Positions 17,189 to 24,911 of a DNA stretch of 64,000 bases are shown piece by piece. Under the pieces are notes generated by a model, which saw nothing but the letters and a program-made list of their open reading frames with translations, was not told the DNA's origin and searched no databases. Source of the stretch: Deltaproteobacteria bacterium. Lineage in GTDB: Bacteria > Desulfobacterota > Desulfomonilia > UBA1062. Position numbers and translations under genes: made by a program. The DNA is taken from the NCBI GenBank assembly GCA_029552245.1, contig JAKPDW010000086.1, forward strand, positions 1 through 64,000, read 5' to 3'. Numbering within the stretch: the first letter of the stretch is position 1; each line of letters starts with the position of its first letter.

Positions 17189-18982
17189 TCAGTACACCCT
17201 CCCGTACACGACACCACCGGGACCGTAGACAGCCTCGGGTATGGAGGTGCCGAGAGAAGGCAGGAAGGACATGAGCGCCATCCATTCCTTGAGCTCCTGC
17301 ACGTCCGACGTGAGTGGATCTCGGTCGATCCTCGACGGATTCTGAGGGCTTATGGGCGGAAGACCATAGTAGATGAGATAGTCGTTCACCACCGAGAGCA
17401 TCTGGAGTGCATAGAGGTCCACGACGATGCGGTATGTCCCGTCAGGATCGACGGGCTCTGTCGGCCCCAGGCAGAAGACGTCAGAAGGATCGTAGACCTC
17501 CACGCTCTGGACCCCACTGAAGGTTGGTGCACCCGATGGGTCGTAGTCGATCCTGAGTCCCGAGAAGTTGAGGTAGTAATCGGATCCCATGAGGGGGGCC
17601 AGGCTGAGGGAGACCTCGCATATGGTGTAGATGTCTTCTCCGGATGCATATGCCGACATGAGCGGGTACCCTGGCACAGACTGGTCGTACGGGGAGATCC
17701 CGAGAGGCAGGACGTTGTACGCATCCGCGAACGTGATGATGCCGCTCACGCCCCCAAGGATCTCGTCCCTGATGACGCCGCTCGCCACGATGCCCACGTC
17801 GAACGGGTCACCCCCGTTGTATGGGGCCAGGGAATTGGCGACAGCCCTCAGCGAGTCCGCTGCCAGTGCACCGAGGCCTGTAACTGAACAAGGTACCATC
17901 TCGAGGGGGAAAGTCGTGCTCGAGACCGGGTCCTTGAGGGCGGGAAGCCCCTTGCTCACGAGCACCGCGCTGATGCCTGCGTCGTAGGCCTTCACGAGCC
18001 CGTCCATACCGGCATCCCCGACGATACCGTCATCGACCGGTATCAGGTCGAACGTGTAGTCCACGAGCTTCCTGGTGAACACGTTGTACGTCACGTCGAG
18101 CCTGCTGAGGTACTTGCCGTATTCGCCGGGAGAGAAGATGATGGTACGACTCGGTCCGGCGACTATCGGCCGGGATGTGGCGGTGTGGTAGTGGCCCGAC
18201 GCGATGATGTCTATCCCCTTGACGTTGTTGGCGAGATCCACGTCATCGCCGCTGCCGTCCTCGTTGACCCCCCCGTGGGACAACGCGATGACCACTCTCA
18301 CCTTCTCCACCTTCCTCAGGTAGTCCACCTGGCTTTGGATGAAGGCATAATCGTGATTGAAGCTCACGGGCCTGGCAACAGGGGCCTTCGAGTCCGCATC
18401 CCTGCCCATGAGACCTATGATGCCTATCTTCACGCCGCAGGGGTGCGAGAGGACCTTGACCCTCGAAATGACACCGGAATCCACGAGCCCCTTGAGGGCG
18501 CAGCCCTCAGGCACGTCCATGTTGGTCGCCACCACCGGGACGTTGAACCCGTTGGCTGCCGCGTTCGCCAGAAGGAGCGCGAGACCCGAGGGCGACCAGT
18601 CGAACTCGTGATTGCCCAAGGTCACGGCATCGTACCCCATGGACTGGAAGAAGGCGAACGCCGGGGGGTTCTCGTTGGCGAGGTCATAGACGGTGCCCAT
18701 GAGAAAATCGCCGGAGTCGAAAAGGAGCGTGGGCATGCCCCTCCTGTTCTGCCTTTCCTTGATCCCTTTGATGAGGGCGGCAAGACGCGCATACCCCCCA
18801 AGGACGATGTCACCGTCTGAAGCGAGGGGCGTATAGTCGGCGTACGGGCCGTACCCGCTCGCGTGGTGGTGCAGGTCAGAGGTCTGCAGGATCGTGACGG
18901 TGATGTTGCCCAGCGGGCAGGCGCTGCTCGACAGCACGAGCCCGACACAAGCCAGCAGCATCATCCAACGTGCCTTTTTCAT
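17189..18982 (-). CDS. exported 5'-nucleotidase / metallophosphoesterase, probable lipoprotein
   Basis: A 597-residue protein of the UshA/5'-nucleotidase family. The N-terminus has two lysines, a hydrophobic stretch and LSSSAC, a plausible but imperfect lipobox (Cys22). The metallophosphatase domain shows TSDLHHH, DSGDFLMG, GNHEFDW, ALSHGG and GHYHT, supplying the two-metal ligands. The C-terminal 5'-nucleotidase domain (~residues 370-570) binds the nucleoside. It probably dephosphorylates nucleotides or sugar diphosphates outside the inner membrane to salvage nucleosides and phosphate. GGGAGGTGAATT precedes the ATG. A sigma-54 promoter match lies ~390 bases upstream on the same strand. Specificity is not readable from sequence. 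Confidence 0.9.
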   Translation of the reverse strand: MKKARWMMLLACVGLVLSSSACPLGNITVTILQTSDLHHHASGYGPYADYTPLASDGDIVLGGYARLAALIKGIKERQNRRGMPTLLFDSGDFLMGTVYDLANENPPAFAFFQSMGYDAVTLGNHEFDWSPSGLALLLANAAANGFNVPVVATNMDVPEGCALKGLVDSGVISRVKVLSHPCGVKIGIIGLMGRDADSKAPVARPVSFNHDYAFIQSQVDYLRKVEKVRVVIALSHGGVNEDGSGDDVDLANNVKGIDIIASGHYHTATSRPIVAGPSRTIIFSPGEYGKYLSRLDVTYNVFTRKLVDYTFDLIPVDDGIVGDAGMDGLVKAYDAGISAVLVSKGLPALKDPVSSTTFPLEMVPCSVTGLGALAADSLRAVANSLAPYNGGDPFDVGIVASGVIRDEILGGVSGIITFADAYNVLPLGISPYDQSVPGYPLMSAYASGEDIYTICEVSLSLAPLMGSDYYLNFSGLRIDYDPSGAPTFSGVQSVEVYDPSDVFCLGPTEPVDPDGTYRIVVDLYALQMLSVVNDYLIYYGLPPISPQNPSRIDRDPLTSDVQELKEWMALMSFLPSLGTSIPEAVYGPGGVVYGRVY

Positions 18983-19657: not shown

Positions 19658-22600
19658 ATGGGAAAGGGCGACATCCGCACGAGACCGTTGACGGCGTTCT
19701 TGTGCTCTTTCTTGCTCCTGCTCGCGGCGGCGCCCACACCTTCCCACGGGTCGGCATGGCGTTGGCAGAACCCGCTTCCCCAGGGAAACACCCTTCACAC
19801 CGTGTGGTCTGCGAGATCGGGCGAGGTCTTCGCGGCGGGAGACCGGGGGACCATCCTCGTCTTCTCCCCTGCCCTGCAAACCCCCGTGGTCTTCAGCAAC
19901 ACGACGACGAACGATATCCTGGCGCTCTGGGGTACCTCGTCCAGGGACGTCTTCGCCGCAGGCGCCTCGGGAACGATCCTCCACTTCGACGGTTCGGAAT
20001 GGATCACGATGCACTCGGGGACCAGGGAGCACCTCTGGGGCGTATGGGGGAGCGCGCCCAACGACGTGTTCGCCGTCGGGTCCGGGGGAACCATCCTGCA
20101 CTATGACGGGAACTCGTGGCAACCCATGAAGAGCCCGACCACCAAGACCCTGAGATCGGTCTGGGGTATTTCTCGAGAACTGGTGTTCGCCGCCGGGTAC
20201 GACGGGACGGTGGTGCGTTACAACGGTGTGGACTGGTCGGTCGAGCAGGTCGGTACCCACAGGGACCTCTATTGTATAAAAGGTATATCGGGTATCGATG
20301 TCTTCGCGGCAGGTGCCGAAGGCACCCTGCTGCACTTCGACGGCGCCGCATGGAAACCCCTGAACAGTCCTGACCTCCGTGGCGACTTCTCCTGCCTCGC
20401 GGCCGGGTATGACGGGATGGTGTTTGTCGCCACCCAGAAGGGGGACGTGTTCTCGTATAACGGCAAGAAAATCATCAAGTTGACATCCCCGCCGGTGCCC
20501 GGCGGCCTCACCGGTATGTGTAGAACCCCTGACGGCCTCCTCTACCTCGTGGGTTCCATGGGCACGTTCCTCTGTGGAGATACAGGGACGTGGAACTCTC
20601 TTGCCACAGGCTTAAGGACCGAGTTCTCCACCATAGGACGCGGGCACGGCAACGACGTGATAGCCTCTGGTTCCGGCGGCGCCTTCGCCGTCTACGATGG
20701 GGTAGCATGGCGCCAGGTGGATGCAGGTATGACCAAGGGCGTGTCCGCAGTGTGGAGGGACGCCGCATCCGACAAGATCTTCGTGGTCGGCGAAAAGGGC
20801 ATGATCAGACGCCACGACGGACGATCCTGGCACGAGATGACCAGCCCCACGTCCGAGAACCTCAACGATATATGGGGTGTTTCCGAGAAAGATGTCTTCG
20901 CGGTCGGGGATGGGGGGACCATCCTCCACTTCGATGGGTTCGACTGGGTCCCCATGAAATCGAATACCTCCAAGGACTTGCGCTCCGTGTGGGGGTATTC
21001 GAGGGAAAGCGTGTATGCCGTCGGGGAAAACGGGGTCATCCTTCGCTACGACGGAGATGCATGGGAGGCCTTGCCGAGGAAGACCGCGCACACCTTGAAC
21101 GGCTTGTGGGGAAGCTCGGAGAGAGACCTGTTCGCAGTGGGTGACATGGGCACCGTTCTCCACTTCGACGGTTCCTCCTGGTCCACGATGGACACCGGCA
21201 TGCTCATGGATCTCCACTCGGTATGGGGCTCGGGCGCCGACGACGTGTACGCGGTCGGCGAAAAGGGCACGATGCTCCACTTTGACGGCTCATCGTGGAG
21301 CCTTCTCCACCCCATGACCACGCTCGACCTCATGGCGGTCTGGGGAAGTTCTGCGGATGACGTGTACGTGGCTGGGCAAGGAGGTGTCATCCTCCACTAC
21401 GGCACCTCGGCTGACCGGGCCATGAACACCGTCGCCCATGCACGGGATGCCCGGAGCACGGTGGGCGATCCCGACATGTATGCAGCACGCACAGCGTTCG
21501 TCCCCGAGGATGAGGCCTTAGACGGAGTGACAGGAGAGACCGTGGATGCGCAGGTCGTCTTCCAGAGAAGAAAGAATGCGAGCAAGAGCCTGCTCGAGTT
21601 CCTGGCGATCCTCGCAGAGGAGAAAGGTCTCTCGAGAGGCGGGCAGGCGCTCGCGGACGCAGGGTCGGCCCCCGTCGGCCAAGGCGGGACCGACGGGCGT
21701 TCGACGACGATGCTTGCGGCAACGGAAAGTCAAAAGGTCACGGCGGCGGCGAATGCCCGGTCAGAGACGCTCGTGGCTGACCTCGGGGTTCCTGCCGGCG
21801 CGATGGACACTAACTCATCTCCTTCCCACGTTTCCGTGCCGGACGATGGGGGTGCCGGCACGCGGGGAGCGGCATCCATGGCACCCATGGACACGATGCC
21901 TGAAACGCGGGTCGCCCTCGGCGGGAAAGAACCCACCCCCGTTGCGGCAGGTTCCAGACCATCGGCTGAACAACCTTCGAAAACCCCCGGCCTGACCCCA
22001 TCCACGGACCTTGCAGGCATTGCGCAAGAGACAGGGCCTGGAACACCAGGGGTCGCCTCGACGACAGAGGCAGGAGTGGGGAACAACGAGGTGGCCGAGG
22101 CCGCCCGCTCCCAAAACGATGCCATATCGCCCGCAGGCAAGGCTGAGGGCCTCAAGTCTGATGAACTCCTCGCACGTCTGGATGGTTCCACCTCCAAACC
22201 GGCAGAGACCCAGGGTTCCCTTACAGTCGAGGGTGACCCCGGCATTGGCGGCAACACCTCTATCGAGGAAACCGGCCCCCAAGAAGTGATCATGGCATCG
22301 GCCGAGACCGGGACCGCCCCTGCCAAGGCTGGGGACAAGGACGAGCCGGCCCCTGCGGGTATCGACCAGGGTGCGTTCACACACCATCCGTCGAGCAGGC
22401 AGACCCCCTCCCCCGAGGTCAGGGGTGAGGACAGGCGCACAAGTGCGCGATCGCTCGCATCGATCAAGCCGGAAGGCGGCGACGACCACGGCACGGGCGG
22501 CGACATGAGCGGGCCGGGCCCGGCAGCGGATTCGACCGGGGCGCGCACGCCCACGTCCGTGGCATCCATGGCGCCTGCCCAGGATGCGGTCAGCGGCGCG

Positions 22601-22843
22601 CAACCCTCCGCCAAGGCGGGCGGCACGTCGCTCGGTTCGACGGCGACTCAGTGGGGGATGCCCACCCACGCTCGACCTTACTACCCTGCAGAGTCGATCT
22701 ACACGCATGTGCTCCAATGGATCCTCGCCCTCTCGCTTGCCGGATTCTTCCTCTTCGGGCTCATCACCACCTTGGTGTGGAGAGAAGAGCGGGTCCACAG
22801 GATCCTCCTGCACCTCACCAGCCAGGTCACCCCGGAGAAGTGA
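19658..22843 (+). CDS. large exported beta-propeller-repeat protein with C-terminal membrane anchor
   Basis: 1061 residues in three parts. A signal peptide covers residues ~1-31 (core LTAFLCSFLLLLAAAP). Residues ~38-590 hold fourteen tandem ~39-residue repeats of the form VWGSSxxDVFAVGxxGTILHYDGxxW, which by count would make two seven-bladed propellers. Residues ~590-1010 are a low-complexity Ala/Gly/Pro/Thr-rich linker. One transmembrane helix follows at ~1018-1041 (VLQWILALSLAGFFLFGLIT), with a short basic cytoplasmic tail. The propellers should therefore sit in the periplasm on a long flexible stalk. AAGAGG precedes the ATG and a sigma-54 promoter lies upstream. Such repeats occur in uncharacterised exported proteins; ligand and role are unknown. 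Confidence 0.85.
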   Translation: MGKGDIRTRPLTAFLCSFLLLLAAAPTPSHGSAWRWQNPLPQGNTLHTVWSARSGEVFAAGDRGTILVFSPALQTPVVFSNTTTNDILALWGTSSRDVFAAGASGTILHFDGSEWITMHSGTREHLWGVWGSAPNDVFAVGSGGTILHYDGNSWQPMKSPTTKTLRSVWGISRELVFAAGYDGTVVRYNGVDWSVEQVGTHRDLYCIKGISGIDVFAAGAEGTLLHFDGAAWKPLNSPDLRGDFSCLAAGYDGMVFVATQKGDVFSYNGKKIIKLTSPPVPGGLTGMCRTPDGLLYLVGSMGTFLCGDTGTWNSLATGLRTEFSTIGRGHGNDVIASGSGGAFAVYDGVAWRQVDAGMTKGVSAVWRDAASDKIFVVGEKGMIRRHDGRSWHEMTSPTSENLNDIWGVSEKDVFAVGDGGTILHFDGFDWVPMKSNTSKDLRSVWGYSRESVYAVGENGVILRYDGDAWEALPRKTAHTLNGLWGSSERDLFAVGDMGTVLHFDGSSWSTMDTGMLMDLHSVWGSGADDVYAVGEKGTMLHFDGSSWSLLHPMTTLDLMAVWGSSADDVYVAGQGGVILHYGTSADRAMNTVAHARDARSTVGDPDMYAARTAFVPEDEALDGVTGETVDAQVVFQRRKNASKSLLEFLAILAEEKGLSRGGQALADAGSAPVGQGGTDGRSTTMLAATESQKVTAAANARSETLVADLGVPAGAMDTNSSPSHVSVPDDGGAGTRGAASMAPMDTMPETRVALGGKEPTPVAAGSRPSAEQPSKTPGLTPSTDLAGIAQETGPGTPGVASTTEAGVGNNEVAEAARSQNDAISPAGKAEGLKSDELLARLDGSTSKPAETQGSLTVEGDPGIGGNTSIEETGPQEVIMASAETGTAPAKAGDKDEPAPAGIDQGAFTHHPSSRQTPSPEVRGEDRRTSARSLASIKPEGGDDHGTGGDMSGPGPAADSTGARTPTSVASMAPAQDAVSGAQPSAKAGGTSLGSTATQWGMPTHARPYYPAESIYTHVLQWILALSLAGFFLFGLITTLVWREERVHRILLHLTSQVTPEK

Positions 22844-23108: not shown

Positions 23109-24911
23109 ATGTCGAGGATACGGGTGCTCCCCCCCGAAGTGGCGAGCATGATAGCCGCCGGCGAGGTCATCGAGAGGCCGGCGTCTGTGGTCAAGGAGCT
23201 GGTCGAAAACGCCATCGACGCACAGGCGGGCTCGATCGTGGTGGACATCAAGGGAAACGGCTGCGATCTCGTCAGGGTGACCGACGACGGGGCGGGCATG
23301 ACGCCCGAAGAGCTCGACAAAGCCATCCTCAGGCACGCGACGAGCAAGATCGGTTCTGCCGAGGACATCTTTGCCATCAAGACCCTCGGGTTCAGGGGCG
23401 AGGCCCTGCCGAGCATAGCGGCGGTCAGCAGGACGACGATCGCGAGCAGGCCCCGCTCGACGGATACGGGCGCTGCGCTGGTGATCGAGGCAGGGGTGGT
23501 GACGAGGCGCTGCCTCAAGGGAATGCCCCCGGGCACGACGGCGGAGGTGGCAGACCTCTTCTTCAATACCCCTGCCAGGAGAAAGTTCCTCAAGACAACG
23601 GCCACCGAACAGCGCTCGATCATCGACGTGATCGCCAGGTACGCCCTCGCCTACCCAAAGCTCGCCTTCCAGCTCGGCATCGACGGCCGCACCGTTATCG
23701 ACGCCCCGGGAAACTCCTCGCATGAAGAGAGGGCCAGGTCTCTCATCGGCAAGTCCTCCGCGGACAGGATGGCGACTTTCTCCAGGGATACCGATATGTT
23801 GCGTGTTTTCGGCCTGCTCGGCCGGATACAGGACGCGAGGAAAAACCGATCCGGCATGTACGTGTTCGTGAACGGCCGCTCCGTCAAGGACGGCATGATA
23901 ACGGCTGCGATCATGGGGGGATATGCGGGGGTGTTGGTCAAGGGCTCCTATCCCGTGGCGGTCGTGTTCATCGAGGTCGACCCAAGAGAGGTGGACGTGA
24001 ACGTCCACCCGACGAAGGCGGAGGTGAGGTTCAGGAACCCGGCAGCTGTCTTCGGCATCCTCTCCTCGGTGATCAAGGAGGCGGTTTCCTCGTCCATGCA
24101 CATGAACGCATCGTCATCTCCTGGAGAGGACGCCTGGTTGACCGGCAGGGGCATCCCACAGGCAGGCAGGCTCGCGGAGGCGGCCCTTCCCCCACACTTG
24201 CACCCCTATGCAGGTCAACGGCAAGGCGAAGACGGCCCCACCCGGCCTCGAGGCCGCCCCGTCGACGCAGCGGAGACCCTGCCGCTCTTCGGTGCGGAAC
24301 GAGACGGTGCCGGGCATGCCTTTTCCTATGCCGGGCTCACGATACTGGGCAGCTTCAGGAATGCGTATCTCGTCCTCTCCGACACGGACTCCCTCTACAT
24401 CCTCGACCAGCATGCGGCACACGAGAGGGTGACCTACGAGAGGCTCAGGCGGGCGTACCACAGCGGCCGTATCCCTTCCCAGTCCCTGGTTTCCCCCAGG
24501 GTCGTGGAACTGACCCCCGGCGACTTCGCCGCGTTCCTCGATGCCCGCGATCTCATTGAATCCCTTGGTTTTTCGTGCGACCCGTTCGGGGAGCGGACCG
24601 TCCTGGTCAGGGCGGTGCCCCAGGAGGTCACCGGCAGCGACGTCGAGGGGGTAATCCTGGACGCAATCCACGCGCCAACCGAGGGGTATGGTCAAGACAC
24701 GGCAGGGGGCCGTAAGATCGATGCGATCCTCGCGGCACTCGCCTGCCGCTCGAGCGTGCGCATCGGCGTCTCGCTCGGTCGCGAGGAAATCGAGCGTCTC
24801 CTCCTCGACCTCGACCGCCTCGGAAGCCCTGCAACCTGCCCGCACGGCAGGCCCCTCTACAAGAGGATCACCCTCGGGGACATCGAGAAGTGGCTGAAAA
24901 GGAAACCCTGA
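23109..24911 (+). CDS. mutL: DNA mismatch repair protein MutL
   Basis: MutL couples MutS mismatch recognition to strand removal. The 600-residue product has the GHKL ATPase motifs in order: ELVENAIDAQAGSI, DDGAGMTPEEL, ATSKIGSAEDIF, and TLGFRGEALPSIAAVSR, then FFNTPARRKFLK. The C-terminal dimerisation domain includes LDQHAAHERVTYERLR, containing the DQHAxxER element that carries the nicking endonuclease site in MutL proteins of organisms without MutH; GQxxxxE-type companions should be checked. CPHGRPLY near the C-terminus fits the metal-binding CPHGRP motif. The C-terminus overlaps the miaA start. Confidence 0.97.
   Translation: MSRIRVLPPEVASMIAAGEVIERPASVVKELVENAIDAQAGSIVVDIKGNGCDLVRVTDDGAGMTPEELDKAILRHATSKIGSAEDIFAIKTLGFRGEALPSIAAVSRTTIASRPRSTDTGAALVIEAGVVTRRCLKGMPPGTTAEVADLFFNTPARRKFLKTTATEQRSIIDVIARYALAYPKLAFQLGIDGRTVIDAPGNSSHEERARSLIGKSSADRMATFSRDTDMLRVFGLLGRIQDARKNRSGMYVFVNGRSVKDGMITAAIMGGYAGVLVKGSYPVAVVFIEVDPREVDVNVHPTKAEVRFRNPAAVFGILSSVIKEAVSSSMHMNASSSPGEDAWLTGRGIPQAGRLAEAALPPHLHPYAGQRQGEDGPTRPRGRPVDAAETLPLFGAERDGAGHAFSYAGLTILGSFRNAYLVLSDTDSLYILDQHAAHERVTYERLRRAYHSGRIPSQSLVSPRVVELTPGDFAAFLDARDLIESLGFSCDPFGERTVLVRAVPQEVTGSDVEGVILDAIHAPTEGYGQDTAGGRKIDAILAALACRSSVRIGVSLGREEIERLLLDLDRLGSPATCPHGRPLYKRITLGDIEKWLKRKP

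Follow-up and report, generated by a model that had tools for sequence, protein, structure and literature searches.

The window, by which we mean the whole stretch of 64,000 nucleotides that was analysed, comes from a Deltaproteobacteria bacterium (genome G000) and contains, at positions 19658-22843 of the plus strand (exact coordinates), an open reading frame whose translation is 1061 residues long. The predicted product, hereafter the propeller protein, combines two β-propellers with a long tether and a C-terminal transmembrane helix (Table 1). Its N-terminal and C-terminal hydrophobic segments (the latter at about residues 1014-1042) were identified by hydropathy only. An AAGAGG motif is located 6 nt 5' of the ATG. 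Conserved DNA was looked for around the gene and none was found, and no RNA element near it reached the gathering threshold. At the start of the window, positions 1-2000 have a G+C content of 41.5%, against about 57-66% elsewhere, and contain an ORF for an AraC-type regulator (641-1543).

Table 1. Predicted parts of the propeller protein and its flanking genes, in window coordinates.
Feature	Residues	Position	Strand	Remarks
Signal-peptide-like N-terminus	1-32	19658..19753	+	Hydrophobic segment 10-29; putative cleavage site
Propeller 1	33-310	19754..20587	+	Closing strand WRWQ, then blades 1-7
Propeller 2	311-586	20588..21415	+	Closing strand TWNSLA, then blades 8-14
Ala/Gly/Ser/Thr/Pro-rich tether	587-1013	21416..22696	+	Disordered by composition; poorly conserved relative to the orthologue
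Conserved hydrophobic segment RRKNASKSLLEFLAILAEE	637-655	21566..21622	+	Near the start of the tether
C-terminal transmembrane helix	1014-1040	22697..22777	+	Kyte-Doolittle 19-residue mean 2.37
21-residue tail, predicted cytoplasmic		22778..22840	+	Orientation predicted on the basis of the export signal at the N-terminus
5'-nucleotidase/metallophosphoesterase, divergent neighbour		17189..18982	-	Pfam; positional marker
mutL, downstream neighbour		23109..24911	+	Pfam; same order in G004; positional marker

Fourteen blades and two rings

An earlier note on this DNA had counted fourteen repeats of ~39 residues, enough for two seven-bladed propellers. A profile built from the protein's own units placed fourteen such blades at residues 46-595, and a second profile, for which only relatives from outside its family were used, gave 14 placements in register, which bears out the count. 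With the latter profile, 12 of the 14 repeats scored 12-75 bits, the other two, repeats 6 and 7, being barely detectable (2.3 and -1.2 bits); in 200 shuffles the best score was 4.4 bits and no domain exceeded 5 bits. The repeats singled out beforehand as the most degenerate, 6-8, were indeed the weakest when scored with a broad family profile (11, 17 and 21 bits). An internal duplication of a seven-blade block was considered and is not claimed, because the similarity of blades at offset 7 was no higher than expected (permutation p 0.26; p 0.63 in the orthologue described below).

A single-sequence AF2 model of residues 33-605 was of modest confidence (pLDDT 65.7, pTM 0.46) and showed four-stranded blades almost throughout. 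Its second half (model residues 286-550, corresponding to protein residues 318-582) matched the seven-bladed G-beta with a Z-score of 27 over 264 residues at 2.5 A, and the structural matches of the whole model were led by the tandem two-propeller proteins 4a2l and 1nr0. An AF2 model of the first half reached a pLDDT of 85.6 and a pTM of 0.85, on an alignment of the second half and one relative, and this inclusion of the protein's own other half could bias the model towards symmetry; an alignment of distant relatives (A1) was left out of folding as too gappy. The first-half model matched 7big, a designed 7-bladed propeller, with a Z-score of 34.0 over 274 residues at 2.0 A.

In the first-half model, an N-terminal strand is formed at model residues 2-5 (WRWQ) and confidence is low past model residue 279. 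Blade 7 of propeller 1 and blade 14 of propeller 2 are each without a fourth strand of their own, and the stretch TWNSLATG, which lies between these two propellers' blades 7 and 8, aligns to WQNPLPQG at the N-terminus. Since the chain past residue ~310 is of low confidence in this model, TWNSLATG would be free to close the second ring, and we infer that both rings are closed by a strand swap involving WRWQ and TWNSLATG. The junction that the earlier note had placed at repeats 6-8 is supported, with the break after strand C of blade 7, at about residue 310.

The blade counts of relatives provide independent support for two rings. Of the 37 relatives that were complete, non-redundant and had 4 or more contiguous blades, 15 have 7 blades and 12 have 14; 13 and 11 blades occur once each, and eight relatives have 4-6, some of these being degenerate or cut arrays. 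In doubles, blades at positions 1, 7-8 and 14 score lower on average, and in singles those at positions 1 and 7. The proportion of doubles should not be read as a census, because the relatives were gathered with the propeller protein and a profile of 14-blade proteins, and the threshold of the phylum search was strict.

Taken together with these 7-or-14 counts, the two models and the solved propellers that they match support an arrangement of the fourteen blades in two closed seven-bladed rings, as had been proposed from the repeats. That all 14 blades close into one large ring, or are partitioned in some other way, is a reading that the sequence repeat alone cannot discriminate from this one, and unusual blade counts do occur in some repetitive propellers (PMC9218822); however, in the models each half forms a closed ring of seven, relatives with exactly 7 blades are common, and the 14-blade protein WRAP, solved as 2YMU, turned out to form two 7-bladed rings (PMC6805158), so that we regard this reading as very improbable.

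Kinship of the blades

When the PDB was searched with a four-sequence profile, Ycf48 was the top solved relative by sequence, with chains at E-values of 7e-9 to 2.4e-8. No Pfam or NCBIfam model reached its cut-off on the propeller protein: PSII_BNR (PF14870), whose cut-off is 27, gave 23.8 bits on the second half and did not match the whole protein, and no WD40 family was listed at E-values up to 10. The short Asp-box motif is defined as S/t-X-D/n-X-X-X-W/f/y between strands C and D (PMC2716378). Its D/N and aromatic residue are found at the right spacing in 11 of the 14 blades; its initial S/T is absent from all 14, where the position is mostly H or R. The Asp-box S is present in three distant relatives (L021, L023 and L157). 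These comparisons support the assignment of the blades to the Ycf48-related, Asp-box-like group of propellers. Such kinship is evidence of fold and descent, not of function; the folds are familiar, and it is the combination of double propeller and stalk, with its repeat family, that has no catalogued name.

The C-terminal modules found in relatives include Big_5, an SdrD_B-like module scoring below cut-off and, from reading the sequence, dockerin-like repeats. One 14-blade relative (L043:7971-9953, G023:C85) ends in two dockerin-like DxNxDG repeats, for which Pfam returned nothing. The genome G000 also encodes a paralogue (L044:7262-9019, G000:C63) in which degenerate VWG blades precede a Big_5 domain and the C-terminus is CFI-like; relatives occur in a gene neighbourhood that is conserved across the family and includes transglycosylase/LysM, rpoH-like and trmE-like genes. 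A phage origin was rejected, as there was no match in phages and none in viral contigs.

Orthologue and gene neighbourhood

Only one further genome, G004 from the same genus, was found to encode the stalked double-propeller architecture. The G004 orthologue is 936 residues long; its 14 blades are followed by a long tail, which has diverged, and by a helix at the C-terminus (Kyte-Doolittle 19-residue mean 2.01); the gene order 5'-nucleotidase, propeller, mutL, miaA and onward is that of G000, and the 5'-nucleotidases of the two loci are 69% identical. A comparable helix at the C-terminus is absent from all other 14-blade relatives that were examined.

At variable loop positions, the two orthologues are identical at 24/63 sites in the D-A and B-C loops against 7/48 in the A-B and C-D loops (Fisher p 0.0097), in an exploratory comparison of two sequences over eight well-aligned blades, both blades and positions having been chosen after a first look. 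The D-A/B-C face thus appears to be more conserved than the opposite one, pointing to a putative binding surface.

The earlier note had advised looking for conserved neighbours, and this search yielded no partner gene, the gene order being kept only within the genus. Elsewhere in the family, in other genera, mutL does not have this propeller as a neighbour, and outside the genus no VWG propeller was found beside the 5'-nucleotidase, which leaves a functional pairing with the latter unsupported. In a third genome (G003), the slot between mutL and the 5'-nucleotidase is occupied by a protein of RCC1 type that has two PKD domains and begins like a lipoprotein (L081:3215-4948, G003:C94); it is unrelated to the VWG double propellers of G000 and G004 and yet sits in the same place. 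RCC1 matches in G003 are confined to three contigs. With VWG doubles in two genomes and an RCC1-type lipoprotein in a third, one may speculate, with a low expectation of being right, that the VWG blades form an uncatalogued exported family of 7-bladed singles and 14-bladed doubles and that the mutL slot of this genus holds an interchangeable tethered propeller. If true, the filling of this slot by unrelated propellers would mean a shared envelope task.

Tether, anchor and location

Residues 665-1010 consist to 84% of A/G/P/S/T/E/D/Q/N/K/R, and order-promoting residues make up 14% of them, versus 33% in the propellers. From this composition and the comparison with the orthologue, the ~425-residue tether is fast-evolving and probably floppy. 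The disordered linker of ~420 residues described in the earlier note is consistent with composition and poor conservation, except that it is not wholly featureless: the RRKNASKSLLEFLAILAEE region is identical to the orthologue at 12/21 positions (the best of 60 shuffles gave 11) and lies 48 residues behind the propeller, versus 49 in the orthologue.

The outer-membrane assembly protein Omp85 is encoded in 3/3 genomes tested of the genus, which supports a diderm host cell, and the propellers should therefore lie in the periplasm. In such a cell, a putative export signal combined with a predicted C-terminal helix implies anchoring in the inner membrane, in agreement with the export and tethering originally proposed. 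An exosortase-type sorting of the tail was not supported, since the G000 tail does not seem to resemble such a sorting signal and G004 has no exosortase match. Elsewhere in G000, a strong exosortase (EpsH) match of 228.6 bits is found at C24:102577-103338.

Discussion

We propose that the propeller protein is a Sec-exported periplasmic double propeller of the Ycf48-related group, flexibly tethered to the inner membrane and serving as a binding or assembly platform, a reading to which we give about an even chance. After export via Sec, the fourteen blades would close into two adjacent seven-bladed rings in the periplasm, with blade 7 completed by the N-terminal WRWQ and blade 14 by TWNSLA, which lies between blades 7 and 8. 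The C-terminal helix would fix the protein to the inner membrane, through a tether that is flexible and at most ~425 residues long. The rings would offer a binding platform, most likely via the conserved loop face, and the bound target, an envelope protein or another ligand, would be kept near the inner membrane; a comparable handling is that of unassembled D1 by Ycf48, a membrane-held seven-bladed propeller.

As no catalytic or signalling domain was found, a tethered scaffold, not an enzyme, is the most economical and the most likely reading of the function. The earlier note had favoured a sensor or scaffold over an enzyme; the preference for a scaffold over an enzyme is consistent with these results, the function itself being deduced from the architecture, and the sensor is weakened. 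Only 21 residues follow the helix, leaving no room for a signalling domain, and the propeller protein could therefore not signal alone. It might still act as the head of a receptor, its double propeller binding a glycan or other small molecule, as in the hybrid two-component sensors of Bacteroides, and the signal passing to a separate membrane kinase or transporter. The best whole-model matches are indeed periplasmic sensor domains with two seven-bladed propellers each, BT4663 and BT4673, the former of which binds disaccharides on its propeller entry faces (PMC5121618). However, besides the short tail, Pfam found neither a Y_Y_Y domain nor a cytoplasmic kinase in the tail region, no kinase or polysaccharide-utilisation genes were recognised among the neighbours examined, and a flexible tether of this length would be a poor transmitter of conformational change, so that a receptor head seems unlikely. 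We judge equally doubtful an adhesive or structural envelope protein, whose stalk would let the propellers reach peptidoglycan or the outer membrane, join layers, or be surface-exposed or released. The long low-complexity stalk and the surface-type C-terminal modules of relatives would suit such a role; the inner-membrane anchor, in a cell that is diderm, and the exosortase results above speak against it.

Double propellers are known from a sensor (BT4663) and from secretion (PorZ), and the tethered platform would extend this set by a form that is stalked and held at the inner membrane. The blade family is widespread, comes in units of seven and has no Pfam or NCBIfam model; a named blade model would allow the annotation of many hypothetical envelope proteins.

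Comparison with known propellers

Ycf48 is a seven-bladed, lipidated factor for the assembly of photosystem II (PSII) and interacts with D1 in its unassembled form (PMC8038367). Like the propeller protein, Ycf48 (PSII_BNR, PF14870; PDB 2xbg, 5ojr) is seven-bladed, exported and membrane-held on the non-cytoplasmic side; unlike it, it has one ring, no stalk and a photosynthetic role, and its anchor in Synechocystis is an N-terminal lipid instead of a C-terminal helix. The hybrid two-component sensors BT4663 and BT4673 (PDB 4a2l, 3ott) have two consecutive seven-bladed periplasmic propellers tethered to the inner membrane, as is predicted for the propeller protein, but their spacer is a Y_Y_Y domain and they signal through a cytoplasmic part, where the propeller protein has a seemingly disordered tether and a tail of 21 residues. 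PorZ is likewise an exported protein with two N-terminal seven-bladed propellers in tandem, but it carries a C-terminal T9SS domain, is surface-exposed and has no transmembrane stalk. The fourteen blades of WRAP (Npun_R6612, PDB 2ymu; PMC6805158) also form two seven-bladed rings, yet they are of WD40 type, near-identical through recent amplification, and part of a STAND protein. Finally, the C. elegans homologue of actin-interacting protein 1 (PDB 1nr0) similarly combines two seven-bladed propellers in one chain, in this case of eukaryotic WD40 type and with actin as a partner.
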